From Clostridiales bacterium (GTDB lineage Bacteria > Bacillota > Clostridia > Lachnospirales > Lachnospiraceae), in NCBI GenBank assembly GCA_012839295.1, contig DUNO01000008.1, forward strand, positions 124,001 through 188,000: a DNA stretch of 64,000 nucleotides. Reading direction: 5' to 3'. Below the pieces are notes generated by a model. It did not search any database and was not told the DNA's origin. It saw only the letters and a list, made by a program, of their open reading frames with translations. The first letter of the stretch is position 1, and every line of letters begins with the position of its first letter. Of the stretch, positions 2,684 to 31,881 are shown in pieces. Both the position numbers and the translations under genes were made by a program.

Positions 2684-5110
2684 CTAAAGCTTATGGACGC
2701 GGTATAATCTTCCGTCCAGGTAGACCAGAATTGATCCGTATTTATTAGGTACATAATTGCTGCTGCGATAGATCGCATTTTTCTTCGTAAAGCAATAGCT
2801 GCTGAGCAAGGTACCATCGGAACGCATTAATGCATAATAATCCTCATCGATTTTCCGGACAAAGGTATACCCATGATTAAAATCAGCCACATCTGTAAAA
2901 AATGTTTCATTATTGATTAATTTTCCCAGACCGTCATAATATTTGTCATTTAATTTCACAATATTATCCGTATACATTAGTCCTGATTCTCTTAATCCAC
3001 TATAAGGAAGTGCTGACAAATTATAAGTAGGAGCCTCTATTGTACCGAGCTTCCTGCCGCCTGCACTATAAAATGTAAGCCTGTATCGGAAGGGATTGGA
3101 AAGCTCCTTCAGACTCACATATCCATCACCGGTAGGCTCTATTGCTTTGCAGTCCGTAGGGGAGATTATTATTTTATTCTTCCCTGTTACAAAGCATGAA
3201 TCACCATCCTTCATAGTAAATATCATATCGTCATTTCCCGTATAAGCTTTGTTGACATTTGCATAATATTGTCCTGTATAAAATCCTGTTTCATCATAAT
3301 AGACACCGGCTGAATTGATTACTGTATTGCCCTCAGTTACAGAAGTATATATTATTACAATCGGATATCCTGAATCAGACCGGAGTGTTTCATAGTTGCT
3401 GACCTTTGATATGGACAGCTTATTTGCTCCCGTTACGGCTTTCAGTGTCAGTATATTATCCTCGGAAAGCACCGCAATGCAGTCTGAGCCAAGGATTTCT
3501 GCTTTTTTTATTCCAGCCGGATTCTCTTTACTGCCGATTACTTCCGGTATACCTATGGACATGATCTGTACACCCGACTTATTATATACACCATATGCGG
3601 TAAAAAATCCTTGTGACACCTCCTCACTGACGCCGGCATTTAACAATTTTGTTTCCGCAAGTAATAATCCGTATTTAAAATAAGATGAATCTCCAATGGA
3701 GGGCTGTGTTGATACCTCCAGGCTGACCGGTGCCAGTGCCGAGTTAATATCCAGCATCCCCATATCGATACCTGATACATCCGCCCCTCCTAATACAAGA
3801 TTCAAATCTTCCTTGGCATGATCTGTAAAGTCCAATTTCTTCTTTCCCTGCGTATCGACAAATCCATCGAATGCCAGATAAGAATTCAAATTAAGTTTTA
3901 AATCAGGATAATAATAGAGAATGACAGCATGTGCGTAGCCATCACTGAAGGTTCCCAGCTTCACGGAGCAGTTTGGCAGATTGGCACAGAGACTGTATTC
4001 CTTGCCATGGTTAATAATCAGCTTTTCGGACAAATCCATAGGATTTCCTTCCTGGGCGCTGTAGATATACTCTTTATCAATCTCACCCAGCAGAATCCCT
4101 GATTGACCGCCATCCATCAGAGAAGAAAATTTAAACTCGGACAGGTTTCCCGCCGCATCACAATAAGCCCATTTTCCCTCTGCATTTTCAAATATAGCAT
4201 ATCCGCCGCTGACCACCCAGCCATTTTCATAGAAAGGTTTTACTACTATATTTCCTTTTTCATCCATCATCCCATATTTTCCATCTGCCCTGATCATCGC
4301 AATCCCATCCACAAAGCCTGTGGTGTAAATGTAAGTTGATGAACTATAAATTTCCTCAAATTTATATTGATTTAACACTTTTCCTGTTTTGATATTGATG
4401 ATGGCACCCTGTATCCAAACGAAATCACTATACCAGTCCTCTGAGGCATCAAGCTTTCCTGACGCATTCAGCCATGCATCCCTGTAATTATACTCCCCCT
4501 CATTTTTCTTCACATAGGTATTCTTGCGGATACCGAAGACCGAAGTGCCATCACTGCCAAATTCAGCAATCAGCGCCGAATCCGGTCCGTAATATTTTGT
4601 ACTGCTTCCATCATAAGTCCAGACCAGATTACCAAGCAATCCAATGGTATAATCCTTATCTGTGACAGAATCATATGCGGTAAAATCAAAGCCGCTTGTA
4701 TCCGTAATGACACTGCTGATTCTGTCAGCTGCGGAAACCTTCACATATACCTCCTTACTATAGGAGCTGTAGTACATCTTCCCTTTACTCTTTGCATATG
4801 CCCTGACCTTATAATAATAGCCTCCTTCGGAAAGTCCACCATCTTCATAGGCATTGAGATTACTTGTTTTTATTTTGGTATATCCTGCACTTTTTTGTTT
4901 TGAACGATAAAAGATATATCCTGTTGCCTTACTGACTTTTTTCACCTTCAGACTGACAGAAGCTTTTGACAAGCAGGATGCCGTAAGCTGTGGTTTACTC
5001 AATGTTATAGTGTCTGCTTTTGCACTGACCGGGATTGTAGCCATCGATAAAAACAATGCACAAAAAATTATACTGATACTTTTTTTTACGATTCCCTCTA
5101 AATACCTCAT
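2684..5110 (-). CDS. large secreted protein with FN3-like domain and WG-type repeats
   Basis: About 808 residues. The start is placed at 5110 (MRYLEGIVKK) because GGGAG lies about 7 bases upstream; an in-frame start at 5137 has no such site. A signal peptide covers residues 1-31 (ending VSAKA). Residues about 35-125 look like a fibronectin-type-III domain (ATGYIFYRSKQKSAGYTKI, YYYKVRAYAKSKGK). Degenerate WG-like repeats follow (KYGMMDEKGNIVVKPFYENG, KWAYCDAAGNL, YYALMRSDGTLLSSY). Probably a surface or secreted structural protein of unknown function, in the same direction as the two other exported genes. Confidence 0.75.
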   Translation of the reverse strand: MRYLEGIVKKSISIIFCALFLSMATIPVSAKADTITLSKPQLTASCLSKASVSLKVKKVSKATGYIFYRSKQKSAGYTKIKTSNLNAYEDGGLSEGGYYYKVRAYAKSKGKMYYSSYSKEVYVKVSAADRISSVITDTSGFDFTAYDSVTDKDYTIGLLGNLVWTYDGSSTKYYGPDSALIAEFGSDGTSVFGIRKNTYVKKNEGEYNYRDAWLNASGKLDASEDWYSDFVWIQGAIINIKTGKVLNQYKFEEIYSSSTYIYTTGFVDGIAMIRADGKYGMMDEKGNIVVKPFYENGWVVSGGYAIFENAEGKWAYCDAAGNLSEFKFSSLMDGGQSGILLGEIDKEYIYSAQEGNPMDLSEKLIINHGKEYSLCANLPNCSVKLGTFSDGYAHAVILYYYPDLKLNLNSYLAFDGFVDTQGKKKLDFTDHAKEDLNLVLGGADVSGIDMGMLDINSALAPVSLEVSTQPSIGDSSYFKYGLLLAETKLLNAGVSEEVSQGFFTAYGVYNKSGVQIMSIGIPEVIGSKENPAGIKKAEILGSDCIAVLSEDNILTLKAVTGANKLSISKVSNYETLRSDSGYPIVIIYTSVTEGNTVINSAGVYYDETGFYTGQYYANVNKAYTGNDDMIFTMKDGDSCFVTGKNKIIISPTDCKAIEPTGDGYVSLKELSNPFRYRLTFYSAGGRKLGTIEAPTYNLSALPYSGLRESGLMYTDNIVKLNDKYYDGLGKLINNETFFTDVADFNHGYTFVRKIDEDYYALMRSDGTLLSSYCFTKKNAIYRSSNYVPNKYGSILVYLDGRLYRVHKL

Positions 5111-5400
5111 AATCACTCCCTGACCTTCCCTATTCAATGATCTCGATTACCTGTTTGTTCAAGAATCCATCGCTATTTAGTATTCTGCATATATTCTTCC
5201 CTCCCATGTAGTATCAAGGCTGTTCCCCTATTTTTCTTTTTGCAACTATCATAACAGAAAATTATGGATTTTAATTACAATTTCAAAATTGGGCTTTATT
5301 CCATCAAAAAAAGCACAAAAAAATTCCGGTCATAAACCGGCAGTCAGTAATTTTACTATGTAAGCGAAGCACAGGTAAATTCACTTGCCATAAATTGAAA
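5111..5400. other. intergenic region, no gene seen
   Basis: This AT-rich spacer separates the WG-repeat gene from the terminator of the kinase gene. It should hold the leftward promoter for 5110-2684, but no convincing -35/-10 pair was identified. No coding potential was seen. Confidence 0.5.
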
Positions 5401-8314: not shown

Positions 8315-8566
8315 CTACCCTTCTTTTTTGTTACTTTTCAGAAGTAAATCGCTTAATTCTTTTAGTAGTTCTTTGTCCGAAGAGGTTACCTTGATATTTG
8401 TACTTAGATTCTTTCCTTCCGGAGTGGTTATTGTTATGTCAATAATTGTCCCAGCTTCAATGCCTGTGTTCTCCACAGCCTTCATAAAAAGCGGAAACTT
8501 TGGATGATTTTGCACAAACTGATTCCATGCGATTGTGAGCTTAAATAATTTTGCCGGATTTACCAT
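8315..8566 (-). CDS. small conserved-type hypothetical protein
   Basis: 83 residues with no signal peptide or membrane segment. The N-terminal half is hydrophobic and aromatic (LFKLTIAWNQFVQNHPKFPL); then comes a strand-rich ITITTPEG segment and a charged Lys-rich tail. A purine-rich stretch precedes the ATG. I recognise the general look of a small protein common in clostridia but cannot give a function. It is monocistronic, with its own terminator at 8200-8238. Confidence 0.6.
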   Translation of the reverse strand: MVNPAKLFKLTIAWNQFVQNHPKFPLFMKAVENTGIEAGTIIDITITTPEGKNLSTNIKVTSSDKELLKELSDLLLKSNKKEG

Positions 8567-8667
8567 GTCTTCTTTTCACCTGCATTCTTGTATTAAGAGT
8601 TTTTATTCAATAAATAGTATTTATGCAGGATAATATATCATATTACAGATTTTAAGTCAAAAAAGAA

Positions 8668-8707
8668 TTCATTAAATTTATAGGATATGATTCGTTAAAT
8701 TTATAGG
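8668..8707. promoter_or_regulatory. pair of 17-bp direct repeats, possible LytTR-type site
   Basis: TTCATTAAATTTATAGG (8668-8684) and TTCGTTAAATTTATAGG (8691-8707) differ at one base and start 23 bp apart, about two helical turns. LytTR regulators bind two direct repeats at roughly this spacing. They lie about 100-140 bp upstream of the small gene starting at 8566. The link to the regulator at 6746-7456 is a guess. Confidence 0.3.
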
Positions 8708-8727
8708 GAGGGCAGACAATAGAATAA

Positions 8728-8771
8728 AAAGACTTTAAATCCCACATATTCCAGCGGAACTTAAAGTCTTT
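8728..8771 (-). terminator. hairpin at the end of the leftward sugar operon
   Basis: AAAGACTTTAA (8728-8738) pairs perfectly with TTAAAGTCTTT (8761-8771) around a 22-base loop, 39 bases after the stop of the isomerase-like gene at 8810. It is a plausible end point for the operon that starts at 15696. Confidence 0.55.
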
Positions 8772-8809
8772 GGGGGGCTTGTCATAATTTAACGGTGGGG
8801 CAAACAGGA

Positions 8810-10219
8810 TTAGCTGTGTCTATAAACCTCTACACCCATGTAGTTTGTGAAGGCTTCCTCCAAAACATCTGCCACATGTCCGCGTACAAAGCAAACATGG
8901 TGCTCGAAGCCATTCTTACACATATACTGCATTAATTTCTGTAATTCCGGTACATAGCAGTTGGCAAGACCGCCCCTGGTCGGAATCTCTTCCTCCTGGA
9001 AACGCCCCTCCCCAAGGTAAGCCTTCATAATACCCTTCTGGTCATCCGTAGTCACACGGAAATAGGTCATATCCCCAGGTGCTACCTGACCCTTACATGC
9101 ACCAAAGCAGTTTTCCTTGCCCAGGGTGCTGCCAAGCACATCGAGACATTCGATTTCAACCTCGGAATCAAAGAAGCTCTTCGGGAAGTTGGAGCAATGA
9201 AGGGATACACAGGTATCGCGTTCTTCACGGATATTATTATTCCAGTCCATCAGCGCCGGAGCGGTGCCTGCTGCCAGGTAAGATGCCAGCATGGATACTG
9301 CACCTGTAACATCACTCTCGCAGGCAGAGGGCTTTCCTTTATCGCCCATCATACTCATGGCAAGACAGGTGGCACAGCCATAGTTATTTTCAACACTGTC
9401 CCAGCATTGTACTGTGGAAGCATCACAATCCAACTCCTCGACTGCTTCCTCAATGGCATTGCACAGCTTTGCCTGACGTTCAATCAGATCATCACCAATG
9501 AAGTCCGGGATATTTCCATAGGCTTTGATTTCCTCTATTTTAGAGGCTATCTTCTCCTGGTCATCATAGTTCATGGCTTTGAAGATAATCTCCGAGAAAT
9601 CCACTGTCTGTACTGCAATACGGTGCTTCTGCAGGATTTTCTCCGAGAAACGAACCGTATTAAAGGCAATCGGACGTGCTCCAAGCATGGCAATGCGGGA
9701 ACCCTTTAAGCCGTTCACTACCCGACAGACTGCCGAGAATTTCTGAAGGTCCTTCTTAAATTCATCACTGCTGATCTTGCAGGTGTGAAGCTCCGTCAGG
9801 GAGTATTTAATATTTCTCTGGTAAAGGTTGTTGCAGAGGGACAGCTTGCCGCAGAAGGCGTCCCGGCGGTTGCTCATGTCCATCTTATCCCAGTCATCAT
9901 CACAGGCCTGGATTAAGACCGGCACCTCCAGCCCGGACAGCTGGATGGCTTCTGCCACACCAAGCTCTTCGCCGAAGTTGGGAAGGATGACAATAATCCC
10001 ATCGATGATGTCACTTTTTTTCTTGAATAATTCTGCGCATACTTTTGCTTCCTCATAGGTTACAACCGCGCCGTACTGCGTATCCTTTTCGCCAACCATG
10101 ACATAGTCATGCCCCAGGGTGTCCAGCAAGTCTGTTATTTCATTACGCGCTGTTTTAACCAGATGGGACGGGAAAAAGCCTCTCGTTGTAACAATTACAC
10201 CAAAGGTTTGTTTTTTCAT
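8810..10219 (-). CDS. L-fucose/L-arabinose isomerase-family sugar isomerase (candidate D-apiose isomerase)
   Basis: About 469 residues from ATG 10219; the ATG at 10240 is itself followed by the GGAGGT that would serve the downstream start (spacing about 14). The fold and layout follow the FucI/AraA-like family: an N-terminal Rossmann-like half (VIVTTRGFFPSHLVKTA, DGIIVILPNFGEELG), a middle domain and a C-terminal metal-binding part (TVQCWDSVENNYGCATCLAM, GACKGQVAPGDMTYFRV). Such enzymes interconvert aldoses and ketoses using a divalent metal in the cytoplasm. Last of six genes, after kinase and transketolase. In a D-apiose pathway it would make apulose; I infer this from context only, and another aldose is possible. 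Confidence 0.75.
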   Translation of the reverse strand: MKKQTFGVIVTTRGFFPSHLVKTARNEITDLLDTLGHDYVMVGEKDTQYGAVVTYEEAKVCAELFKKKSDIIDGIIVILPNFGEELGVAEAIQLSGLEVPVLIQACDDDWDKMDMSNRRDAFCGKLSLCNNLYQRNIKYSLTELHTCKISSDEFKKDLQKFSAVCRVVNGLKGSRIAMLGARPIAFNTVRFSEKILQKHRIAVQTVDFSEIIFKAMNYDDQEKIASKIEEIKAYGNIPDFIGDDLIERQAKLCNAIEEAVEELDCDASTVQCWDSVENNYGCATCLAMSMMGDKGKPSACESDVTGAVSMLASYLAAGTAPALMDWNNNIREERDTCVSLHCSNFPKSFFDSEVEIECLDVLGSTLGKENCFGACKGQVAPGDMTYFRVTTDDQKGIMKAYLGEGRFQEEEIPTRGGLANCYVPELQKLMQYMCKNGFEHHVCFVRGHVADVLEEAFTNYMGVEVYRHS

Positions 10220-10266
10220 AGTTTTTACTTTTACCTCCATTTGTTTTAGTATTGGTTGTTAATAAA

Positions 10267-11742
10267 TTATTTTATCAGCAGGCCCACTGCATTCTTCCAG
10301 CCATCATAATGCTTTTTGCGCTGTTCCCCAGTCATAACGGGGCTCATGGAGCTGTGAAGGCCGCGCCCGAAAATGGCTTCTGAGGTAGTGCATCCAGCTG
10401 CAATCGAGGCAAGATATGCCACGCCTGCGGCAGATAATTCCTCAATCTTTGATACCGCCAGGTCTACGCCCAGTAAATCCGCCACAAACTGCATCAGGAA
10501 CTGGTTCCTCGTTGCGCCTCCGTCCACACAGAGCTTCTGCAGAGGTTCCTGGCAGCAGGTGTTCAACTCCTCCACAATGTCCTTAATCTGGAAGGCAATG
10601 GCCTCCAGTCCTGCACGAACAATATGCTCCTTCTTTGTGGATGCGGACATTCCGCAGATGATCGCCCTCGCTTCATTATTCCAGTAAGGTGCCCCAAGGC
10701 CGGAAAATGCCGGTACCAGATATACCCCATTGGTGCTTTCCACAGCTGCGGCGATTTCCTCGGATTCCCTGGCATTTGCGATGAGCTTGATATCCTCCGC
10801 CAGCCATTTGATGATTGCCCCGCTGTAGTTGATATTTCCTTCCAGGGAATAGCTCACCCTTCCCCCGATTCCCCAGGCAAGGGACTCTACTACCCCCTTC
10901 GAGGTTACCTTCGGGCGTTCCAAGCCGGCATTCATCATAACGGAGGTTCCGGTTCCAAAGGTTGCCTTTGCCGTAAAGGAGCTATGGCAGCCATTTGCAT
11001 AGAGGGCCGCATGGCTGTCACCCATCATCGCATGGACCGGAACTGGTGTATCAAATAAACCTTCAAGGGTGGTATAGCCAAAAACGCTGTCGCTGGACTG
11101 TATTTCCGGAAGGGCGGAGCTCTTAATCCCAAACAGCTCCACCATATCCGGATCCCACTGCAGGGTATCTAAATTCAGCAGCTCAGTTCTGGAGGCATTG
11201 GAGTAGTCCGTCTTAAACTCCCTGCCCCCCGTCAGTTTGTACAGCAGCCAGGCATCAATATTGCCGCAGTATAATTTATCTTCCTGGAGCAGCTTCTCCG
11301 CAGCAGGGACATTGCGCACGATCCAGGTGAACTTCGGTGCAGAAAAGAAGGGGGACAGGTTCAGGCCTGTGACACGGCGGACCAGCCCAGCCTTGCCGGC
11401 CTTTTCCATCTCCTGTGTAATATCCGTTGCCCGCCCGCATTGCCATACGATGGCATTGTATACCGGTTCACCGGTCTCCTTATTCCAACAGACTGCCGTC
11501 TCACGCTGGTTCGAGATCGCCACCGCTTTAATTCGGGATTTATCCAGCTTACTTTCCCCAACTACCTTTTTACAGGCCTTCACTGTATTCTGATAAATCT
11601 CCACCGGATCGTGCTCAACCCAGCCCTTCTCATTGGTAATCTGGCGGTGTGGAATATCGGTGCGGGAGACCAGTTCCCCCTCCGCCGTGAATAGGATAGC
11701 CTTCGTTCCCGCAGTACTTTGATCAATTGAAAGAATATACAT
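10267..11742 (-). CDS. FGGY-family carbohydrate kinase, glycerol-kinase-like (candidate apulose kinase)
   Basis: 491 residues from ATG 11742, with GGAGG 5 bases upstream. The N-terminal ATPase motif is LSIDQSTAGTKAILF; AISNQRETAVCWN and YNAIVWQCGR are typical of the glycerol-kinase branch of FGGY kinases. The second domain has the phosphate loop ATFGTGTSVMMN and the C-terminal motif LCVDGGATRNQFLMQF. The family phosphorylates polyols or ketoses. It sits between the isomerase-like gene and the split transketolase, so its substrate is probably the ketose made by the isomerase, with the phospho-ketose passed to transketolase. Glycerol itself is less likely because no glycerol facilitator or dehydrogenase is present. 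Confidence 0.85.
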   Translation of the reverse strand: MYILSIDQSTAGTKAILFTAEGELVSRTDIPHRQITNEKGWVEHDPVEIYQNTVKACKKVVGESKLDKSRIKAVAISNQRETAVCWNKETGEPVYNAIVWQCGRATDITQEMEKAGKAGLVRRVTGLNLSPFFSAPKFTWIVRNVPAAEKLLQEDKLYCGNIDAWLLYKLTGGREFKTDYSNASRTELLNLDTLQWDPDMVELFGIKSSALPEIQSSDSVFGYTTLEGLFDTPVPVHAMMGDSHAALYANGCHSSFTAKATFGTGTSVMMNAGLERPKVTSKGVVESLAWGIGGRVSYSLEGNINYSGAIIKWLAEDIKLIANARESEEIAAAVESTNGVYLVPAFSGLGAPYWNNEARAIICGMSASTKKEHIVRAGLEAIAFQIKDIVEELNTCCQEPLQKLCVDGGATRNQFLMQFVADLLGVDLAVSKIEELSAAGVAYLASIAAGCTTSEAIFGRGLHSSMSPVMTGEQRKKHYDGWKNAVGLLIK

Positions 11743-11837
11743 GGGTTCCTCCGTTTTATGCAAATTTTCTTTTCATAACAGAAGGCTTTACAGAAACAAA
11801 TCCTTCCCGCACTATAGGCCATCTGCTTATTTTCTTA

Positions 11838-12767
11838 TTATTGCAATAACTTTCCTGCTACGGCAGCTACATTCTCCGGCGTTAATCCGTAATGCCCAAA
11901 GAGCTCTTTTGAGTTACCTATCTTGATCTCCTCATCCGGGAAGCCAAGGATTTTGACCTTCGCCGGCGCATACTCGCTAACCACATGGGTAACTGCTTCG
12001 CCAAGCCCGCCATAGATGCTATGCTCTTCCAGGGTTATAATTCCCTTTGTTTCCTTCGCTGCTTTGATTACGCTTTCCTCGTCAAGGGGTTTAACGGTAA
12101 ACATATCAAGAACTCTTGCGCTTATTCCCTGTTCCTTTAACAGCTCCGCTGCTTTTTTCGCTACAATAACCATCTCGCCGCAGGCAATAATGGTAATATC
12201 CATACCGTCACAGACCTGCTTTGCCTTGCCAACCTCAAAGCTTTCCCCCGGTTCATAGACACCTTCCACGTCACCCCGTCCCATGCGCATATAAGTCGGA
12301 TGATCCGTATTTGCCAGGTACTCCGTAAGGTATTCCGTCTGGACATTATCCGAGGGAGCCAGCACAAGCATATTTGCCAGAGCCCTCATGCTTGCGTAAT
12401 CGTGGAGGGAGGTATGGGTTCCGCCAAGGGGGCCATAGCTGACACCGGAGCTGACACCTATGATCTTGACATTTGTCTTATTATAGGCCACATCCACCTT
12501 CACCTGTTCAAAGGCGCGCGCCGCTAAGAAGCAGGCTGGGCCTGTGACAAATACATTGTTCCCATCCTTTGCCAGGCCGCTTGCCACACCGACTGCGTTT
12601 TGTTCAGCGATTCCGCACTCAATAAAGCGCTTGGGGAATTCCTCCGCAAACTTCCCTATGGTTACGCTTCCACGGGAGTCCGTCGCCACGGCATAAATCT
12701 TCTCATTTTCCCTCGCCAACTCAAGTAATTTTGCTGTAAATGCTTTTCTGCAGGATACCTTTGCCAC
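11838..12767 (-). CDS. transketolase C-terminal subunit (pyrimidine-binding + C domain)
   Basis: 309 residues starting at GTG 12767, with GGAGG 9 bases upstream and overlapping the end of the N-subunit gene. It corresponds to the second half of transketolase: pyrimidine domain (SRGSVTIGKFAEEFPKRFIE, CGIAEQNAVGVASGLA with the catalytic-type Glu) and C domain (ITLEEHSIYGGLGEAVTHVV). Two-subunit transketolases are common in Clostridia, and one group, AptA/AptB, acts on apulose 4-phosphate. It must pair with the protein at 12769-13581. Context argues for a dedicated catabolic enzyme rather than the housekeeping pentose-phosphate enzyme. Confidence 0.93.
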   Translation of the reverse strand: MAKVSCRKAFTAKLLELARENEKIYAVATDSRGSVTIGKFAEEFPKRFIECGIAEQNAVGVASGLAKDGNNVFVTGPACFLAARAFEQVKVDVAYNKTNVKIIGVSSGVSYGPLGGTHTSLHDYASMRALANMLVLAPSDNVQTEYLTEYLANTDHPTYMRMGRGDVEGVYEPGESFEVGKAKQVCDGMDITIIACGEMVIVAKKAAELLKEQGISARVLDMFTVKPLDEESVIKAAKETKGIITLEEHSIYGGLGEAVTHVVSEYAPAKVKILGFPDEEIKIGNSKELFGHYGLTPENVAAVAGKLLQ

Positions 12768-12768
12768 G

Positions 12769-13581
12769 CTAGGACACCTCCATTCCTTTTTTCGTTAGAT
12801 CCGCTTTAATCTGTTCATATTCCTCAGCCGTTGGAATATTGTGATGCCAATCAGCCTTATTTTCCATAACGGAAGAACCATAGCCCTTTATTGTATCCGC
12901 AATGACCACCGTGGGCTGCTTGCTCTTTCCTTCCTTCAGAGCCGGGATTAATTCCCCATAATCATGTCCGTTGCAGGTTACCACATGGCATCCAAAGGCA
13001 CCGTACTTCTCTGCCAGGTTATCCAGGGGCATGACATCCTCCGTACCGCCGCTGATCTGCAGCCTGTTCCGGTCAATGATCATGGTCAGGTTATCAAGCC
13101 CGAACTTTGCCGCTGCCATGGTGGCTTCCCACACGGAGCCCTCTGCCTGCTCACCGTCACCCATGAGCACATAGACATGAGCCGCAGAACCCCTGTTCTT
13201 AAGGGAAATCGCCATTCCGACAGCTGCGGATAATCCATGGCCAAGGGCTCCTGTTGCTATCTCAATGCCGTTGATGCCCTTCGTCGGGTGCTCCGCCAGC
13301 TTTGTCCCGAACCTGGTATAGGTCTCAAGCTCTGCCTTATCAAAGAAGCCGCAGTCCGCCAGCACCGTATACAGTGCTTCGGAGCAATGTCCCTTGCTTA
13401 GGATAAAGCGGTCCCTGTCCTCATCATGGTCCTTGATCTTTTGTATGTCCATAACGGAGTAGTACAGGCTGGTCAGGATATCCATACAGGACATGCTGCC
13501 GCCGATATGCCCCGACTTCTTACTGTATACCATTTCTAAGACATCCAGCCTTCTATCAAATGCTATCTTTTTTAAATCCAT
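12769..13581 (-). CDS. transketolase N-terminal subunit (TPP-binding)
   Basis: 270 residues with AGGAGAGG before the ATG. It has the thiamine diphosphate motif starting GDGEQAEGSVWEA (141-153) and ending in IIDRN, plus the transketolase signatures KKSGHIGGSMS and LSKGHCSEALY. It separates from the C-subunit gene by 1 base, so translation is coupled. The splitting is the natural two-gene form, not a frameshift: each half has its own ribosome site and a complete domain. Function: transfer of a two-carbon ketol group from a ketose phosphate to an aldose phosphate in the cytoplasm. Confidence 0.93.
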   Translation of the reverse strand: MDLKKIAFDRRLDVLEMVYSKKSGHIGGSMSCMDILTSLYYSVMDIQKIKDHDEDRDRFILSKGHCSEALYTVLADCGFFDKAELETYTRFGTKLAEHPTKGINGIEIATGALGHGLSAAVGMAISLKNRGSAAHVYVLMGDGEQAEGSVWEATMAAAKFGLDNLTMIIDRNRLQISGGTEDVMPLDNLAEKYGAFGCHVVTCNGHDYGELIPALKEGKSKQPTVVIADTIKGYGSSVMENKADWHHNIPTAEEYEQIKADLTKKGMEVS

Positions 13582-13602
13582 CTGCCTCTCCTTTTCTTAA
13601 AA

Positions 13603-14598
13603 TCAATCACCAAAATAATATTTAAATTTTGCACACATATCATCCAGGATAAATCTTGCGTCAATCTCGTCGTAAATACGGATCTGCCTGCTGCCGGGCC
13701 TTGACAGGTCGTAGCTTCCGTCCGGAAGGAGGTCACAGGGGGCGGATGCCATATGCCATTTGCCAATGCTTGGATTATGGAGGAGTCCGACACAGGGGGA
13801 ATCCCCTAAGGACCAGGATTCCGCATTGCAGAATACATCCACGTCCGTAGTATCCATCTGCATAAAGCCAGGGGAACCGGAGCCGTCCTCAGCCTTGCTC
13901 TGCCTTGCCCGTTCCGATACAATGGCACGGATACCATTCATGATCTTTTTCCCCTTAACCATGGTGTTTTCATACAGGTATCTGCCGATTTCCCCGCAGG
14001 GATAGATCCTTGTCAAAATCTCGGCAAAGGAGAACCGCATGGTAGTATATACATTCATGGGTACCTGCCATAATTTCAGCTTTGATTTAAATAAGATCCT
14101 GGCCGCATTCAAGTCGTTGTTCTGGTTAAACTCCCTGCCGCCATGGGGGTAAGCGCCACCGCCGATCCAAATTACGGTCAGGCGGTCTGCAATCTTAGGC
14201 TCCATCAGATAGGCACAGGCAATATTCGTAACTGCGCCCTGGTGGCATACGAATAAGGGTCTTGGGTCATCCTTCATCGCCTCTTCAATGATGAACCTGG
14301 CTCCTTCATTTTCAATCGGTGTATGCTCGTCTGCCAGTGCCTCCGGTGCCCCATGAAGAATATTCACTTCACCCTTCAAGCCCATAAGCTCTGTTACTTT
14401 AACAATTTCGTCATAGCTGTCCTGCTCGGAATTAACCTCACCATAATGGGCTGCTATGATTCCCTTAATATCAAGCTTCGGTGTCATCAGAAAATGTGCC
14501 ACCGCATATTGGTCGTCACATTCGCAATTACAGTCCGTGTCAACAATTACCCTCAGCCCTTTTTCAAATGGAAATGGAACCGGCAATTCTTTTAACAT
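13603..14598 (-). CDS. nucleoside-hydrolase-like protein, paralogue 1
   Basis: 331 residues, ATG preceded by GGAGG. The N-terminal metal motif is VDTDCNCECDDQYA, an elongated version of the DxDPGxDD calcium motif of inosine-uridine nucleoside hydrolases, closer to the TDxxNExDD form of DUF1593-type relatives. VIWIGGGAYPHGG, FNQNNDLNAARILF and WQVPMNVYTTM match the family core, including the N-x-x-x-D-x-x-A segment. These enzymes cleave furanosyl glycosidic bonds, classically N-ribosides. It shares an operon with a sugar isomerase, kinase and transketolase, so it may release a furanose from a glycoside. No signal peptide: cytoplasmic. Confidence 0.8.
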   Translation of the reverse strand: MLKELPVPFPFEKGLRVIVDTDCNCECDDQYAVAHFLMTPKLDIKGIIAAHYGEVNSEQDSYDEIVKVTELMGLKGEVNILHGAPEALADEHTPIENEGARFIIEEAMKDDPRPLFVCHQGAVTNIACAYLMEPKIADRLTVIWIGGGAYPHGGREFNQNNDLNAARILFKSKLKLWQVPMNVYTTMRFSFAEILTRIYPCGEIGRYLYENTMVKGKKIMNGIRAIVSERARQSKAEDGSGSPGFMQMDTTDVDVFCNAESWSLGDSPCVGLLHNPSIGKWHMASAPCDLLPDGSYDLSRPGSRQIRIYDEIDARFILDDMCAKFKYYFGD

Positions 14599-14679
14599 TA
14601 TGTTACCTCCATGTCATACTTTTTTCTCTCATATTATTAATAAACCATATTTTGCTGCTTACAGGCGGACATTCGTACC

Positions 14680-15696
14680 CTACTTTCCGTAACAAAGTCC
14701 CAGCTTCGCAAATAAGTCACTGATACTCATTCTTGTGTCTATAGAATCATATACGCGGATCTCTTTTCCCTCCGGGTTTGGCGTGTAGGTTGCGTCATCC
14801 CCGATAAAGGGGGCTTTCTCCATATGCCAGGATACCCGTTCCCCGCTTTGCAATAGTACGGACAGGGTAGGATTATCCCCGATACACCAGGTTTCCCCGT
14901 GGGGGAAGGCATGTCTGGCCATCTGTGGTGAGCTTCCCATTTTGTCATTTAAGGCGAACATCTGCTGGCACAGGTAGGCTCCTATGGCTCCGCAGGGCTT
15001 TACATACCTGATCAGCTCAGCAAAGCTGATCTCAATGGTCTTATAGGTGTTCTTCGGCACCTGCCAGACCATCATAGGGCTTTCAAATACTACCCGTGCC
15101 GCCTTAATATCCTGCTTTAGGTTGAACTCATCCTCTCCCGCCGGGTAAGCTCCCCCTCCGATCCATATGGCAATGACACGGTCTGCAATCCTTGGTTCCT
15201 TCAGATATGCGATGGCCAGGTCCGTCATACAGCCCATCAGCGCTACGTAAAGAGGTCTGTCATCCTCCTTCATTGCCTCTTGTATGATGAAATCCGCACC
15301 TTCGCTCTCCGGTAACTGATTTAAATCAGAAAGCTCATACCGCGATCCCCGGATCAAAGGGATATCCTCGATCTCAGCCAGGTCAAGGAGTTTTTTCCCC
15401 TCCTGGTAGCTTAATTCCATGCTTGTTCCCCTTGCTGTAAACATATTGTTATCAGAAGCCTCCAACTGCTCCAAGGAGAGACCCTGCTGCTTGGCAAACA
15501 TGGGCAGCATACTTGCAATCCATTCGAAATGTCCGGCAACAATCCCCTTTACCTCAATGGAAGGTGTCAATAGATGATGCATGATCGCAAAGGGATCATC
15601 CGCTTCATTTTTCACATCCGAGTGTATGATCACCCTCTTCTTCTTCAAATCAGGAACTGTGAATCCAAGCCTTGCTAATACCTCATCTCTTTTCAT
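14680..15696 (-). CDS. nucleoside-hydrolase-like protein, paralogue 2 (first gene of operon)
   Basis: About 338 residues from ATG 15696, with AGGAG 9 bases upstream (TTG 15702 is a weaker choice). The metal motif is IIHSDVKNEADDPFA: the first Asp of DxD is replaced by His, while NEADD fits the DUF1593-type form. AIWIGGGAYPAGEDEFN, QDIKAARVVF and WQVPKNTYKT mirror paralogue 1. The pair are diverged tandem duplicates on the same transcript, perhaps with different glycoside preferences. Expression starts at the promoter at 15798-15826. Cytoplasmic; furanosidase activity is inferred. Confidence 0.8.
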   Translation of the reverse strand: MKRDEVLARLGFTVPDLKKKRVIIHSDVKNEADDPFAIMHHLLTPSIEVKGIVAGHFEWIASMLPMFAKQQGLSLEQLEASDNNMFTARGTSMELSYQEGKKLLDLAEIEDIPLIRGSRYELSDLNQLPESEGADFIIQEAMKEDDRPLYVALMGCMTDLAIAYLKEPRIADRVIAIWIGGGAYPAGEDEFNLKQDIKAARVVFESPMMVWQVPKNTYKTIEISFAELIRYVKPCGAIGAYLCQQMFALNDKMGSSPQMARHAFPHGETWCIGDNPTLSVLLQSGERVSWHMEKAPFIGDDATYTPNPEGKEIRVYDSIDTRMSISDLFAKLGLCYGK

Positions 15697-15797
15697 ACGC
15701 AAAAACTCCTTTTAAATTAGTTTTAAACTTCTTTCGCAATTTCTTATAATACAGTAATAATTTTATTTTCTTCATTGCTACTCAATTTATATAATTA

Positions 15798-15836
15798 ATT
15801 GTAAATCCGTAGCCCTATACAGTCAAGAGCGCTTTG
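15798..15836 (-). promoter_or_regulatory. sigma-A promoter of the leftward six-gene operon with overlapping operator-like site
   Basis: On the minus strand TTGACT (15826-15821), 17 bp, TACAAT (15803-15798). Transcription would begin near 15791, about 95 bases before the first start codon. Overlapping and just upstream of the -35, CAAGAGCGCTTTG (15824-15836) has the central CG dyad (AGCGCT) seen in LacI-family and cre sites, though its fit to cre is poor. Confidence 0.6.
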
Positions 15837-16126: not shown

Positions 16127-17146
16127 ATGGCAATTTCATCTAAGGAACTTGCGGCAATGCTTGGCGTATCCCCCTCTGCCATATCAATTGCCTTGAATAA
16201 TAAAGAGGGCATCAGCCCCGAGACACGGGAAAGGATCCTAAAAGCTGCCAAAGAGCATGGCATCCAAAAGTCCGAACGGTTAAACACGGGCAAAGCCCGC
16301 TCCATGTTTATTAACCTGGTTATCTTTAAAAAGCATGGCATGGTTTATGGTGATACCCCTTTCTTCTCGGAGGTGATCGAAGGAATCAGCAACCAGGTCA
16401 AGAAGGTGGGCTACAGCCTCCTCGTGACCTACCTCTACGGTAACCAGGACCGGAAGGAACAGCTGCGCTCCTTAAACCTGTCCGAGTGTGCCGGTATCAT
16501 ACTGCTGGCCACGGAGATGTCCGAGGAGGATATCCGGTGGTTTTCCTCGGCAAACCGGCCAGTCGTCATACTCGACAGCTATTTTGGGAACTATAACCTG
16601 GATTCTATCGTAATAGATAATATTCAGGGTGCTTACCTGGCCACCAGCCACCTGATTGAGCATGGCCACAAAAATATCGGTCATCTGGCATCCCAGGTCG
16701 AAATAAATAATTTCAAGGAACGCCATGAGGGCTTCGCGAAGGCGGTAAACCGTTCCTCTGAAACCTGCGACAGCATTTATAATACCATCCGCCTCCGCCC
16801 CACCACGGAAGGCGCTTATGAAGACATGAAGGCTTATCTCGGGAAGAAACCGGAGCTGCCCACCGCATTTTTTGCAGATAATGATATTATTGCAATCTCC
16901 TGTATACGTGCCCTTAAGGAGGCCGGTTATAAGATCCCGAATGACATCTCCATTGTGGGCTTTGACGATATCCCCATGGCCTATGTCACCTCACCTAAGC
17001 TGACAACGGTGCATGTGGCAAAAGAAATCCTTGGAATACGGGCTGTAATCAGGCTCATAGAGAAGATCAATGACCCCAGCGATGCCGCCCTCAAGATTGC
17101 GGTGAATACGACCTTGGAGATAAGGGAAAGCGTTTCCAGAAAATAA
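16127..17146 (+). CDS. LacI-family transcriptional regulator
   Basis: 339 residues. The N-terminal helix-turn-helix is SSKELAAMLGVSPSAISIAL (3-22), followed by the hinge helix and a periplasmic-binding-protein-like sensor domain (65-335; GIILLATEMSEEDI, TAFFADNDIIAISCIRALKE, SIVGFDDIPMAYVTSPKLTT). CGGAG precedes the ATG. It is divergent from the isomerase-kinase-transketolase operon and shares a 430-bp control region with it, so it most likely controls that operon and itself. The effector is probably the sugar or a phosphorylated intermediate; the binding-domain ligand cannot be read from sequence. Confidence 0.93.
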   Translation: MAISSKELAAMLGVSPSAISIALNNKEGISPETRERILKAAKEHGIQKSERLNTGKARSMFINLVIFKKHGMVYGDTPFFSEVIEGISNQVKKVGYSLLVTYLYGNQDRKEQLRSLNLSECAGIILLATEMSEEDIRWFSSANRPVVILDSYFGNYNLDSIVIDNIQGAYLATSHLIEHGHKNIGHLASQVEINNFKERHEGFAKAVNRSSETCDSIYNTIRLRPTTEGAYEDMKAYLGKKPELPTAFFADNDIIAISCIRALKEAGYKIPNDISIVGFDDIPMAYVTSPKLTTVHVAKEILGIRAVIRLIEKINDPSDAALKIAVNTTLEIRESVSRK

Positions 17147-17397: not shown

Positions 17398-18861
17398 TTA
17401 CTTCTTTAGCTGGAACTCCTTAAAATCCATAACACCGTTACCACAGTAAATAAAATAGAGGGCTCTCTTTCCGTTCTCTATTTTCAGCGGAGCTTTAAAT
17501 ATGGTCCAGCGGGTCGTCGGCTTTACCGCAATCTCCCCGACCATTTTCCCTTTTATACCGTCATATACCTGAAGCCTTCCGGTTGCCTTTCCCCTTACTT
17601 TCACCGCAATGGATCTTACGCCATCGATCTCAAAATATTTGAAGCCAACCCATGCCCCATTATACATATTTGCAATATACTGGTTCGGGTTATCTTCCCG
17701 GTCCTCCCCTTCCTGGGTAAAATAAGGGTGTTTGTTAAAGACCAGATTCCCCATCCCAAACTTATAGCGTCCGGCACTGTAAACATATCGCAGATGGCAT
17801 GCAATTCTGGCTTCGTATACCCCTTCCCCACGGAGAGGTCCGCCATTTAAGCCGCAGCTGGTCAGCTCCACCTGGGGAATCCGGCCATCGGGCAGAATCG
17901 TAATCGGCTCCGCCATACCCTGCCTGGAAAACATATGGCGGTTTGTCTGCCGATGATAAAATACATACCATTGTCCCTTAATTTCTACAATGCTCCCATG
18001 GTTATTTCCAATATAATTATAAGCCTTTGTATCCTTTGTATGTCCGTTCAGATACAGATCCCCATTACTAATGATTGTTCCTCCGAACACGAATCCCTCC
18101 GTCGGGTTTTTACTCGTCGCATAGCAAAGCTCATGGCCGTTAATGGAGGAATAGATAAAATAGTAGGTGTCCTTAATCTTACGGATTGAGCTGGCCTCAA
18201 AAAACTCATGTCCCTCAAAGCCGGTGCCCCGGGCTTCTCCCACCTTCTTGAAAAGCTTCTTCGGGCTTCCCTTCACTGTCTTCATATCAGGCTCCAGCTC
18301 TATGACATAGCCACCGTCCATCCTCCGTTTTTTTCCCGACAGGAGGGAAAAAACCTTGCCCTTAGGCGCAAATCCGGAATAGAGGTATACCCGGCCATCA
18401 TCATCCACCAGTACTCCCGGGTCAAATAAAAAAGGATCCCCGCTCTCCTGCCAGAGAATGGAGCCGTCCGGGTTCTGGACATAGCCGTAAAACTCGTACT
18501 GCCCTGCCGGAGTATCACAGACCGCAACCGCCATGACACTGAGGAAATCAAAGGCATAATAAAGATAATACTTTCCGTCCGTACCCCTGGCGACGTCCGG
18601 CGCATACAGCATACGCTTGCCATCCTTATTCATGGGATCCTGTGTCTTCTTATAAATAACTCCTTCATATCTCCAATCTGCCAAATCATCCACGGGGGCT
18701 GACCAGCATACATAATCATTCATACAAAAGGTTTTGCCATTAAATTTGTCATGGGATCCATAAACATAGACCCTGTCCCCAAACACATAGGGCTCCCCGT
18801 CCGGGACGTATTCGTAACTTGGTAAATATGGATTAAATGCCTGCTTCTTGATTTTCTCCAT
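17398..18861 (-). CDS. glycoside hydrolase family 43 protein (arabinofuranosidase/xylosidase type)
   Basis: 487 residues, AGGAGTGAGG before the ATG, no signal peptide, so intracellular. The five-bladed propeller (about 1-330) carries the family acidic triad: base Asp in EYVPDGEPYVFGD, pKa-modulating Asp in FLFDPGVLVDDDG and acid Glu in GHEFFEASSIRKI. The C-terminal 130 residues form a likely beta-sandwich. GH43 enzymes remove alpha-L-arabinofuranosyl or beta-D-xylosyl units; the exact specificity is not readable. It is transcribed toward the LacI gene and probably forms a transcription unit with its own promoter in 18862-19091. Confidence 0.88.
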   Translation of the reverse strand: MEKIKKQAFNPYLPSYEYVPDGEPYVFGDRVYVYGSHDKFNGKTFCMNDYVCWSAPVDDLADWRYEGVIYKKTQDPMNKDGKRMLYAPDVARGTDGKYYLYYAFDFLSVMAVAVCDTPAGQYEFYGYVQNPDGSILWQESGDPFLFDPGVLVDDDGRVYLYSGFAPKGKVFSLLSGKKRRMDGGYVIELEPDMKTVKGSPKKLFKKVGEARGTGFEGHEFFEASSIRKIKDTYYFIYSSINGHELCYATSKNPTEGFVFGGTIISNGDLYLNGHTKDTKAYNYIGNNHGSIVEIKGQWYVFYHRQTNRHMFSRQGMAEPITILPDGRIPQVELTSCGLNGGPLRGEGVYEARIACHLRYVYSAGRYKFGMGNLVFNKHPYFTQEGEDREDNPNQYIANMYNGAWVGFKYFEIDGVRSIAVKVRGKATGRLQVYDGIKGKMVGEIAVKPTTRWTIFKAPLKIENGKRALYFIYCGNGVMDFKEFQLKK

Positions 18862-19091
18862 TATGCCTCACTCCTTCATAATCCAAATTGTTAAGATCCT
18901 CCCGGGCCTGATCCCTGTTACGCCTCCAAACTCTGCACCAGACAGGGGATATTATGCTAATATTAAGGCAGATTGCGCCTGTTTTCTAATGTTTGTACTT
19001 ATTATAGCACTATTGCCTCTCTATTTATATGATATTTTTATAAAATTATCCAAATAATTTAAAGTTCCCCAAATTATTTGCCAAAGGCAAA
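18862..19091. other. intergenic region upstream of the GH43 gene
   Basis: AT-rich spacer between the hairpin at 19092-19147 and the GH43 start; expected to contain its leftward promoter. No dyad matching the LacI candidate operator (TGTGAAATGA) was found. No gene is seen. Confidence 0.4.
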
Positions 19092-19147
19092 AACCAGGAC
19101 AGTCAACCTGCCCACCTGGTTTGGCAGATCAATTGACTATCCTGGTT
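19092..19147 (-). terminator. terminator of the GH35-like gene
   Basis: AACCAGGACAGTCAA (19092-19106) pairs with TTGACTATCCTGGTT (19133-19147) with one G-T pair. It lies 35 bases downstream of the GH35-like stop codon. Confidence 0.65.
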
Positions 19148-19182
19148 CCTATTGTTCTTCCATATGAAATAATTATTCAGAA

Positions 19183-20724
19183 CTAATATTTATACAGCTC
19201 AAGATAATAAGAGCCCAGTTGATCCTTTAAATGCAAGGCCATTCTTTCATCCCCGTTCAACACACGGCGGCCTTTCCAATTGCCATTTTCAAACTCTCCC
19301 TCCTCCAGCTTTAAAATATCCACCTTCCTGTTTTCCCCTGATTTCGGGAGCACCTTAATGCTGCACATCATGCCAATAACATAAAAGCTGTTCTCTCCAA
19401 CCTCATATATCATTCCGGCGGCCAGCGGTTTATGGGGCTGCTTCGGGTTATAGCTTACGAGAAAATCATATTCTGCAAACTGGATAAGCTCGCCACAATC
19501 CGTCTCCGATTTCTTTACGAAGCTTTTTAGGGCCGGTGTGTGACGGTATTTAAAGTACAGGGGCTTTATATCCTCCATCACCCCATATACCCTGGAAAGG
19601 TATTCCTTGCTGCCCTCGATATCAAAGGCAGAGGGGTCAATATTTAATGCCAGCATGACCTCCATCGGCGGCTTGTTAATCGTTTCCGGCGCCATTGATA
19701 ATTCCTCCACCGCAAAGGGGGAATAGCCGAGGGCATTATATTTTCCAAAGGCATATAAGGCGTAGGAGGAGGTGATGGCATCCTTACGGACCTCCGGGAT
19801 CAAGAGGGGGTTGCCACCCTCTGCATACTCTTCCATGACCCGGGGGACATAGGGAACGTAAATATCCGGTGCAAGGCAGAACAAGGAAGGTGCCATCAGC
19901 CTCCACATTCTTTTCATGGATGCGACAGGGCCGCCGCAGGGGTAGGAGCCCAAGTACCAAGGATACTGCTTTAGCCAAGCATTAACATAGCAGGGAAGGT
20001 TATATTCCTTCTGGGCTGCCCCGGTGATACGCTCCACGGCCTTGGCGTAATAATATGCCATAAAATATTCCCCGGCTCCATAGCCAAAGCATTCCTTCCA
20101 GCTTCCATGGACTGAAAATTCCTTTTCCACCTCTGCGGGAACCTGGTCCGCAAAGCATTTCTCTCCTTCTGCGGAATAATCCCTGTCGGCCCCAAGAAGA
20201 CCCATCTCATTTTCAACCTGGATAGCGATTACCGTATTTTCCTCCCCATCTACGGCCTTTAAATGTGCCATGATATGGGCCAGTGCATTGGCATCCTTTT
20301 CGACGGCAGCCTGGCATAGGGGAGATATGGTATTGATGGCCTCCCCATCTACCTTCCTGGCACGAAAATAGGTCTGGGAATCCCGCTTCATCCAGCCAGG
20401 TACATAGGAGGATTCCCCATTCTTCCACAGGCCGAACCATAGCAGAACCAGATGCATCCGGTTTCTCCTCGCCTGGTCGATGATGCCGTCTAAAAGGATA
20501 TAATCGAATACTCCTTCTACGGCTTCAACCAGCTCCCAATAAATCGGAAGAATGACTGTATTCATGTTTAGGCCTTTTAAGTTAGGCCAGACCTCCGCCT
20601 CCATGAATTCAAGGCTGCTCGCGCTGGAATTATGGATCTCTCCACCTAGGATGAGAAAGGGCTCGTCGTGGACGTAGAGGGTGTCAATTCCGTTAAACTT
20701 TCTTATTTCTGGTATATTTCCCAT
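19183..20724 (-). CDS. GH35-like beta-galactosidase family protein
   Basis: 513 residues with CGGAGG before the ATG; no signal peptide. The TIM-barrel N-terminus is typical of GH35 (LILGGEIHNSSASSLEFMEA, WPNLKGLNMNTVILPIYWEL). The presumed acid/base is the second Glu of IAIQVENEMGLLG and the nucleophile the Glu in LLIPEVRKD. The C-terminal part (about 350-510) resembles the DUF5597 domain appended to this GH35 subgroup, which occurs in plant-wall utilisation loci. It probably trims galactosyl or related beta-linked sugars from imported oligosaccharides. Downstream of, and co-directional with, the GH3 gene (88-bp gap). Confidence 0.85.
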   Translation of the reverse strand: MGNIPEIRKFNGIDTLYVHDEPFLILGGEIHNSSASSLEFMEAEVWPNLKGLNMNTVILPIYWELVEAVEGVFDYILLDGIIDQARRNRMHLVLLWFGLWKNGESSYVPGWMKRDSQTYFRARKVDGEAINTISPLCQAAVEKDANALAHIMAHLKAVDGEENTVIAIQVENEMGLLGADRDYSAEGEKCFADQVPAEVEKEFSVHGSWKECFGYGAGEYFMAYYYAKAVERITGAAQKEYNLPCYVNAWLKQYPWYLGSYPCGGPVASMKRMWRLMAPSLFCLAPDIYVPYVPRVMEEYAEGGNPLLIPEVRKDAITSSYALYAFGKYNALGYSPFAVEELSMAPETINKPPMEVMLALNIDPSAFDIEGSKEYLSRVYGVMEDIKPLYFKYRHTPALKSFVKKSETDCGELIQFAEYDFLVSYNPKQPHKPLAAGMIYEVGENSFYVIGMMCSIKVLPKSGENRKVDILKLEEGEFENGNWKGRRVLNGDERMALHLKDQLGSYYLELYKY

Positions 20725-20812
20725 AGGTTAACCTCCGAATATAGTTTATTGTAGTTGGTAATTTTTGATTTAGGGCCGGGGCAGATTTTGGGGTAATATC
20801 ATCTAGTCTTTC

Positions 20813-31736: not shown

Positions 31737-31783
31737 TATATATTTCTATTTTATTATTATTTTTGTGATTATTGCTCATTTAC

Positions 31784-31798
31784 AACATTATATTTGTT
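31784..31798 (+). promoter_or_regulatory. operator-like dyad, copy C
   Basis: AACATTATATTTGTT, the third copy of the 15-bp motif, located about 24 bp upstream of the -35 of the regulator gene promoter. Confidence 0.5.
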
Positions 31799-31821
31799 AT
31801 TTATACGTTTCATGCTTTTTA

Positions 31822-31850
31822 TGGACATTTTTTATTTCATATGTTATTAT
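31822..31850 (+). promoter_or_regulatory. probable promoter of the ArsR-HTH regulator
   Basis: TGGACA (31822-31827), 17 bp, TATTAT (31845-31850); the predicted start is about 25 bases before the ATG at 31882. Confidence 0.5.
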
Positions 31851-31881
31851 CATTTTAGAACAACTTTATTGGAGGTATCCT

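Follow-up and report, generated by a model that had tools for sequence, protein, structure and literature searches.

Results

A six-gene operon with a split transketolase and two nucleoside-hydrolase-like genes

The window analysed here is a 64,000-nucleotide stretch of contig DUNO01000008.1 from a Lachnospiraceae bacterium (assembly GCA_012839295.1), whose genome comprises 6.36 Mb in 82 contigs. Six open reading frames (ORFs) on its minus strand form one leftward operon, from 15702 to 8810, that faces a divergent LacI-family gene and encodes two nucleoside-hydrolase-like (NH) proteins, both halves of a transketolase, an FGGY kinase and an isomerase (Table 1). We propose that this operon probably serves the breakdown of D-apiose by the transketolase route, with the NH pair acting as apioside hydrolases. 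The intergenic gaps, read from NH2 to the isomerase, are 81, 21, 1, 74 and 26 nucleotides. The initial annotation of this DNA had described the same gene set, and all six ORFs were found again with Pfam assignments that agree: IU_nuc_hydro at 73 (NH1) and 61 bits (NH2), Transketolase_N at 154, Transket_pyr/Transketolase_C at 105/117, FGGY_N/C at 215/139 and Fucose_iso_C at 97.5 bits. The operon boundary, placed there at 15696, was corrected, as the start lies at about 15702. The whole block is kept at 86-92% identity in a Herbinix metagenome-assembled genome (L037), the contig of which stops inside the isomerase gene. Genes, gene order, phylogeny, conserved residues, gene context and co-occurrence are reported below as direct observations.

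Table 1. Operon genes and flanking features, in window coordinates
Feature	Position	Strand	Basis
NH2, second nucleoside-hydrolase-like protein	14680..15702	-	IU_nuc_hydro; called start TTG, not certain
NH1, nucleoside-hydrolase-like, proposed apioside hydrolase	13603..14598	-	IU_nuc_hydro, AlphaFold2/Foldseek, residue survey
Transketolase N-terminal half, AptA-like	12769..13581	-	Pfam, tree, identity to E. coli AptA
Transketolase C-terminal half, AptB-like	11838..12767	-	Pfam, tree, identity to E. coli AptB
FGGY kinase, 498 aa, glycerol-kinase-like, candidate apulose kinase	10267..11763	-	Pfam, NCBIfam, tree
Isomerase, 476 aa, L-arabinose/L-fucose isomerase fold, candidate D-apiose isomerase (ApsI-like)	8810..10240	-	Fucose_iso_C, tree, AlphaFold2
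Promoter-like site upstream of NH2	15798..15826	-	10/12, consensus match only
Terminator-like 18-pair stem after isomerase gene	8771-8728	-	consensus match only
Divergent LacI-family regulator	16127..17146	+	ORF call, Pfam
GH43-family protein	17398..18861	-	Pfam; neighbours in other genomes

The transketolase and the isomerase group with enzymes of apiose clusters

A D-apiose transketolase pathway (ApsI, AplK, AptA/AptB) is described for Escherichia coli and Pectobacterium clusters in excerpts of PMC13001218, which name AplK, AptA and AptB of E. coli SE15 and report that cluster-bearing Escherichia strains grow on D-apiose and K-12 does not. The window shares with this pathway the isomerase, the FGGY kinase and the two-subunit transketolase. 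For comparison we fetched the E. coli SE15 locus together with three plasmid-borne clusters of enterobacteria, in which an isomerase gene is present as well. A tree of 33 transketolase sequences placed the window pair in a 28-row clade (support 99/94) made up of the window, four enterobacterial AptAB pairs (E. coli, Klebsiella, Sodalis and Rahnella), 22 other operon rows and a split pair from contig C19 of the window genome itself. The remaining five of the genome's six other transketolases, a full-length enzyme and the split pairs C7, C14, C56 and C79, lie outside the clade. The initial annotation had named the branching of the halves with housekeeping enzymes as the result that would speak against D-apiose; the halves instead clade with AptAB, and on this tree we rejected an ordinary pentose-phosphate transketolase. 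The window N-terminal half is 44% identical to E. coli AptA and the C-terminal half 35% identical to AptB. The C19 pair belongs to a locus (L171 2198-11834) with a LacI gene, a distant isomerase (Fucose_iso_C 31 bits), RbsBAC, the split transketolase of the Apt clade and an FGGY kinase.

The isomerase likewise groups with the enterobacterial apiose-cluster isomerase in one clade (99/96), at 43-46% identity to the enterobacterial enzymes and 46% to that of Klebsiella; the branch order inside this clade is tentative, as the tree program flags a meeting of long branches at the ApsI rows. We infer that the isomerase of the enterobacterial clusters is ApsI from its place in the cluster and from the statement, in excerpts of PMC13001218, that Escherichia lacks apsI. 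Also within the clade are three proteins (L008-L010) that are nearer to the window isomerase (51-55%) than the enterobacterial ones, and six rows at 31-36%, among them a protein on contig C55 of the window genome (about 34%). An AlphaFold2 model of the isomerase (8-row alignment, predicted local distance difference test score (pLDDT) 78.8) matches L-arabinose isomerases with a best Foldseek E of 1.4e-21. Its only NCBIfam match is the sulfoquinovose isomerase SftI model NF048012 (88.5 bits). Split transketolases are known in a sulfosugar route, and together these two points count for a pathway of sulfoquinovose or another sulfosugar; the SftI score against a cutoff of 700 led us to reject this route, which, with the isomerase in the clade of the apiose-cluster enzyme, we consider extremely improbable. 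In the wider stretches around L008-L010 (L127, L129 and L130) no Apt-type transketolase was found among the called genes. Two of these neighbourhoods, L127 and L129, hold isomerases of the window type (type A) and of a second subfamily (type B, described below) side by side with distant FGGY kinases, and may be another use of the same type-A/type-B pair.

The window kinase falls into one group with 13 kinases from related operons (97/91). Its score on the glycerol-kinase model TIGR01311 is 557 bits, below the cutoff of 590.

Related operons carry apiose-type binding proteins or PF13204 genes

Type-B isomerases are about 25-27% identical to the window isomerase, and their operons are ordered LacI, isomerase, transketolase N, transketolase C, kinase. 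An isomerase at least 62% identical to the type-B enzyme of L038 is present in 50 of 299 Lachnospiraceae genomes, three further ones at 45-51% being excluded; the type was seen in Paenibacillus (L053), Listeria (L075) and Monoglobus (L076) too. The sample holds about one genome per genus and the statistics ignore relatedness. In all genome counts 'operon' means a type-B isomerase, which had the transketolase and kinase alongside in 43 of the 48 family regions fetched first. Through the type-B isomerase, blind to NH genes, we fetched 61 regions, of which 48 with transketolase and kinase were kept and 13 set aside. PF13204-type and NH genes in these 48 operons were called by BLAST against a few references. 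The ORF caller used for neighbouring genes was greedy (it missed at least the isomerase of L126, AptA of L073 and the NH and transketolase N genes of L043), so that counts of neighbours are minimum values.

In 15 of the 48 operons there is a binding protein with 51-69% identity to its counterpart in the Klebsiella apiose cluster; a PF13204-type gene is present in 11 and an NH gene in 3 (one operon has both), and 20 have none of these types. Together, a binding protein or a PF13204-type gene is found in 26/48. The binding protein (15 operons) and a PF13204 or NH gene (13 operons) never occur together (Fisher p=0.004), an exclusion that may reflect import of the free sugar in one case and of whole glycosides in the other. 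The best Protein Data Bank match of the Klebsiella and L080 binding proteins is 5ibq (450 and 345 bits), a structure which we take to contain D-apiose. Scores on the PF13204 'Apiosidase' model reach 313 bits in Listeria, 240 in L083, 322 in L099 and 60 in Monoglobus, and the Listeria protein matches the solved structure 8t9w, named Apiosidase; PF13204 apiosidases presumably correspond to glycoside hydrolase (GH) family GH140. The binding protein and the Apiosidase genes in related operons make apiose the best substrate for the group. Across the same genome set, a type-B isomerase is present in 25 of 29 genomes with PF13204.

The Listeria/Monoglobus-type operon (L075, L076) has the enzyme set of the window plus a glycosidase-family gene; its isomerase is of the other subfamily (about 25% identical), and a PF13204 gene stands where the window lineage has NH-like genes. 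In the proposed reaction and in operon place, PF13204 apiosidases resemble the NH genes, although the Pfam family is unrelated and the NH-like proteins have no PF13204 match. None of the 20 window proteins scanned matched PF13204, which was found elsewhere in the window genome, where four proteins reach an E of 1e-30 or better. As for regulation, LacI homologues (at least 34% identity) are present in 37 of the 48 related operon regions; the Klebsiella apiose cluster has a 'sugar-binding transcriptional regulator', in place of which the window operon has LacI. On contig C26 of the window genome (L176 5961-10560), a LacI gene 41% identical to that of the window diverges from a pair of genes, the second of them PF13204, possibly a remote part of the window LacI regulon.

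Fold and active site of the NH-like proteins

NH1 and NH2 are about 41% identical to each other. The AlphaFold2 model of NH1 (31 rows, pLDDT 93) matches nucleoside hydrolases with a best Foldseek E of 1.2e-16 and TM values of about 0.6-0.7. Among 67 NH copies surveyed, Asp22, Glu26, Asp28, Asp29, Thr124, Asn158 and Asp162 are invariant, while Glu156 is kept in 65, Asp266 in 66 and Gly265 in 65. The resulting fingerprint, DxDxxxExDD, is longer than the DxDxxxDD of nucleoside hydrolases and contains an extra invariant Glu. An EFN stretch, which presumably binds ribose in known enzymes, is also kept.

In nucleoside hydrolases, according to excerpts of PMC8910321, the metal is held by two Asp residues of DxDxxxDD, by one Asp about 230 residues further on and by the O2'/O3' hydroxyls, and groups I-III are set by a His or Trp in the beta3-alpha3 loop together with a His, Trp or Cys before the last Asp. 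Asp28/29 and Asp266 of the NH subfamily align with the metal Asp residues; the register of Asp22 varies, being gapped to 6ba1 and ungapped to 6ba0 in one comparison, and ungapped in a second. NH1 and NH2 share with group I enzymes (IU-NH, RihA/B/C) the fold, the EFN stretch and the Asp residues of the probable metal site, in the fingerprint (Asp22 in one of its two registers) and distal to it, but differ in the longer fingerprint, in a missing loop and in the residue before the last Asp. The HGxxGxG stretch is absent from NH1 and NH2, 21-26 residues being missing in three alignments, and we read this gap as loss of the beta3-alpha3 loop. Before the last metal Asp, the subfamily has Gly rather than the His, Trp or Cys of groups I-III.

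NH genes accompany apiose-type operons

A pattern scan with NH1 over 84,980 species genomes returned 32 loci, nine of which hold operon genes (L037, L038, L041, L043, L046, L053, L056, L063 and L064), partially so in L041, with the transketolase only, and L064, with the kinase only. The L041 stretch (8541-12810) reads GH43, NH, transketolase N, transketolase C, a partial operon that has neither isomerase nor kinase there. Cultured species with NH in the operon include [Clostridium] fimetarium DSM 9179 and Paenibacillus turpanensis. In five loci, L038, L053, L056, L063 and L193, an NH gene is the next sizeable one on the strand downstream of the kinase, starting about 320, 16, 14, -3 and 64 nucleotides after it, respectively, and the same place is held by a PF13204-type gene at 3 (L076), 24 (L124) and 72 nucleotides (L122). 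In the window, L037 and L043, the NH genes lead the operon rather than trail the kinase. The closest relative of NH1 is the NH protein of the type-B operon L038, and that of NH2, outside L037, is encoded after the kinase of another type-B operon, L193 (64%).

We then counted co-occurrence in the 299 genomes, in which a 22-row NH profile scored copies at over 300 bits in 28 genomes and only weaker ones in 15 others. In a tree of 68 NH copies, a nine-row clade (the L065/L066 group) was set apart before counting; a type-B isomerase is present in 0/7 of its genomes. The NH subfamily itself coincides with a type-B isomerase in 17 of 21 genomes, against 33 of 278 without such an NH gene (p=1.7e-11), and one of the four exceptions, the window genome (G000), has the type-A operon, giving 18 NH genomes with an operon. 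This clade-based count was made after seeing the tree, and a 400-bit cut (16/17) was chosen after seeing the scores; an alternative cut at 300 bits gives 17/28 (p=2.6e-8). Within operon genomes, 5 of 22 NH copies have their start or end within 5 kb of the isomerase, compared with 0.2 expected within 18 kb (P 3e-6).

Away from the operon, at 25 loci, the 91 neighbours of NH genes include the families BPD_transp_1 (9), MFS_2 (6), AraC, GH3, GH1, GH78 and ROK, and no nucleoside-salvage family appears among the 25 Pfam families listed of 109 near these genes. In L046, an apiose-type operon is followed by AraC, GH51-like, GPH permease, NH, ROK and GH1 genes, and the set GPH permease, NH, ROK and GH1 recurs in L044 (with L179, from its length and order, taken as the same contig) and L181. 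We infer from this set a sequence of apiosyl-glucoside import, apiose removal, glucose removal and glucose phosphorylation. In L183, the NH gene adjoins a gene for a BT_1020-like protein; BT_1020 is, as we assume, part of rhamnogalacturonan II (RG-II) breakdown. Homologues of the window GH43 protein occur near NH-like genes in L039-L042, L049, L143 and L190, and this gene is probably a partner of the operon.

A second, unrelated pathway points to the same sugar. Plasmids of Microvirga ossetica (L074, 3260-10897) and M. lotononidis (L209), 87-97% identical, carry an operon that combines an NH gene of the subfamily (422 bits) with genes for an ABC transporter and a PGDH_C dehydrogenase and with two whose best NCBIfam matches are the 3-oxo-isoapionate decarboxylase OiaX (453 bits) and the kinase OiaK (575 bits), both scores lying below the cutoff of 700. 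The 3-oxo-isoapionate (D-apionate) route, which begins with apiose-derived apionate, differs from the transketolase route in its chemistry, as it uses a RuBisCO-like protein and a sugar-acid kinase.

Discussion

Proposed pathway

The substrate, each enzyme activity and the cellular location proposed here are predictions from sequence. The isomerase would convert D-apiose to D-apulose and the FGGY kinase D-apulose to apulose 4-phosphate, from which the two-subunit transketolase would transfer a two-carbon unit to glyceraldehyde 3-phosphate, giving xylulose 5-phosphate and dihydroxyacetone phosphate. This reaction scheme reportedly comes from Carter et al. 2018. NH1 and NH2 would act ahead of the isomerase, probably in the cytoplasm. 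They may bind a beta-apiofuranoside by chelating its 2,3-cis-diol with a metal, the way ribose is bound in nucleoside hydrolases, and a metal-held water could free apiose from a plant glycoside taken up by the cell. In plant food the sugar is common, both in pectin RG-II and in flavonoid apiosides.

The catabolic steps of the operon very likely serve apiose, and the D-apiose substrate put forward in the initial annotation is supported by the transketolase and isomerase clades. For the NH pair we are more cautious: that NH1 and NH2 cut the apiosyl bond is our best reading, which we hold at slightly under even confidence. A little more tentatively still, it is tempting to speculate that their subfamily forms a new O-glycosidase class, a beta-D-apiofuranosidase that depends on a metal, derives from a loop-less branch of nucleoside hydrolases and has lost the nucleobase-activating residue in favour of Gly; it would be cytoplasmic, occur in Clostridia and, with another pathway, in Alphaproteobacteria, and act on apiosyl-glycosides imported whole. 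An apiose-type operon is a known kind of system, and the NH-like pair, probably its apioside hydrolase, is the new element. Among the open PubMed Central (PMC) papers searched, none brings together nucleoside hydrolase and apiose; apulose, isomerase and kinase; GH140, apiose and rhamnogalacturonan; or nucleoside hydrolase, transketolase, FGGY and gene cluster. Nor did the excerpts of open PMC papers listed in our searches describe a Firmicute enzyme that frees apiose inside the cell. If the proposal is true, a group of O-glycosidases recognisable by a sequence mark would join the nucleoside-hydrolase fold, and a new name would be due for many gut-bacterial genes annotated as nucleoside hydrolases.

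Observations that weigh against an apiose operon with apioside hydrolases

Several observations weigh against the proposed pathway. Those concerning the catabolic genes would fit a different pentose or tetrose as the substrate of isomerase, kinase and transketolase. The kinase scores 534 bits on the glycerol-kinase model NF000756, above its cutoff of 498, so that automatic annotation would say glycerol kinase, and the kinase tree gives no supported order among AplK, GlpK and four further operon kinases. At 39% identity, the window kinase is equally near E. coli AplK and the GlpK of its own genome; the phylogenetic comparison with AptA/AptB and AplK suggested in the initial annotation thus succeeded for the transketolase and failed to separate the kinase. 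No apiose-type binding protein was found in the window genome (best match 29%), the transketolase clade takes in the C19 operon with its distant isomerase, and the isomerase clade takes in L008-L010 and the six distant rows, next to distant kinases. On the other side, the isomerase is closer to the apiose-cluster enzyme than to the C55 type of the same clade, more than half of the related operons have an apiose-type binding protein or a PF13204-type gene, and the nearest relatives of NH1 and NH2 sit in two type-B operons. We therefore regard a different sugar as improbable.

The remaining points concern the NH pair. Nucleoside hydrolases show strict specificity for ribose and act poorly when the 5' hydroxyl is absent, as stated in excerpts of PMC8910321, which also report hydrolysis of an O-glycoside, 4-nitrophenyl riboside, by the IU enzyme and the lack of the His in some active enzymes. 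In Klebsiella michiganensis (L211), a distant relative (166 bits, compared with 449 for NH1) encoded between a PfkB kinase and a nucleoside transporter is also loop-less with the long fingerprint, and the missing loop and long fingerprint were accordingly dropped as a mark of apiosidases. Together with the fold, the family and the kept EFN stretch, this relative would suit a reading of NH1 and NH2 as ordinary nucleosidases or ribosidases carried along with the operon. It has Trp before the last Asp, however, whereas the Microvirga and Novosphingobium proteins have Gly, which suggests in this small sample that Gly, and not the missing loop, goes with glycoside contexts. With Gly at this position in nearly all copies, no salvage family among those listed near off-operon NH genes and the strong association of NH with the operon, the nucleosidase explanation appears highly improbable.

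The association itself has its limits. Only 3 of the 48 operons fetched blind to NH contain an NH gene, and three genomes (G015, G025 and G036) carry NH with neither operon type found, G015 having only a 51% isomerase. In a control with GH78 (PF17389) over 102 genomes, taken to be G000-G101, the operon is present in 9 of 31 positive and 5 of 71 negative genomes (p=0.009); the same genomes give 2/3 for NH above 400 bits (p=0.049) and 4/7 for PF13204 (p=0.006). From this weaker GH78 link, a general plant-glycan lifestyle explains part of the NH association. Thirteen of the 50 operon genomes have both NH and PF13204, and as the two are positively linked within these 50 (p=0.005), NH as a simple replacement of PF13204 was not upheld.

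More distant NH relatives in Novosphingobium (206 bits for L210) lie with GH43, GH3 and DUF5597 on two plasmids (L210 and L212) or with GH1 (L213), and no apiose pathway is visible in these stretches. The plasmid set is the same family set as window 17398-23017, to which it is 42% (GH3), 30% (DUF5597) and 23% (GH43) identical. Such neighbours, like the GH43, GH51-like, GH78 and BT_1020-like genes that adjoin NH elsewhere, would agree with an apiose operon whose NH-like proteins cut a different furanosidic linkage in the plant material that is taken up, for example arabinofuranosyl or modified RG-II apiose, and the four PF13204 proteins of the window genome could then free apiose instead. The position of NH directly after apiose-type kinases in five loci and among 3-oxo-isoapionate-type genes in Microvirga argues for the apiosyl bond, and we judge another furanoside unlikely, if less so than a nucleosidase or a different sugar. 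The suggestion of the initial annotation that the NH pair frees the furanose from glycosides has thus gained gene context, co-occurrence and one active-site difference, and is kept as a conditional assignment.

Other features of the window

Terminator-like sites in the region number 8 compared with 7.5 in shuffled sequence, that is, there is no excess. An 11-base near-palindrome upstream of NH2 was considered as a regulator site and rejected, as its 7 window matches with at most 1 mismatch, against 3.4 expected, were reached in 9 of 100 shuffles. An 817-aa protein with no Pfam match is encoded at the start of the window (2684-5137, minus strand). At the edge of an ABC/GH cluster, an ArsR-type helix-turn-helix protein (31765-32811, plus strand) has a C-terminal part of about 230 residues without a Pfam match. 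A 645-aa sugar-binding protein with two tandem Peripla_BP_4 domains (46287-48224, minus strand) is encoded beside RbsA/RbsC-like, PfkB, SIS and TIM-barrel genes, and frames of 649-660 aa elsewhere in the window genome match the same kind of query.

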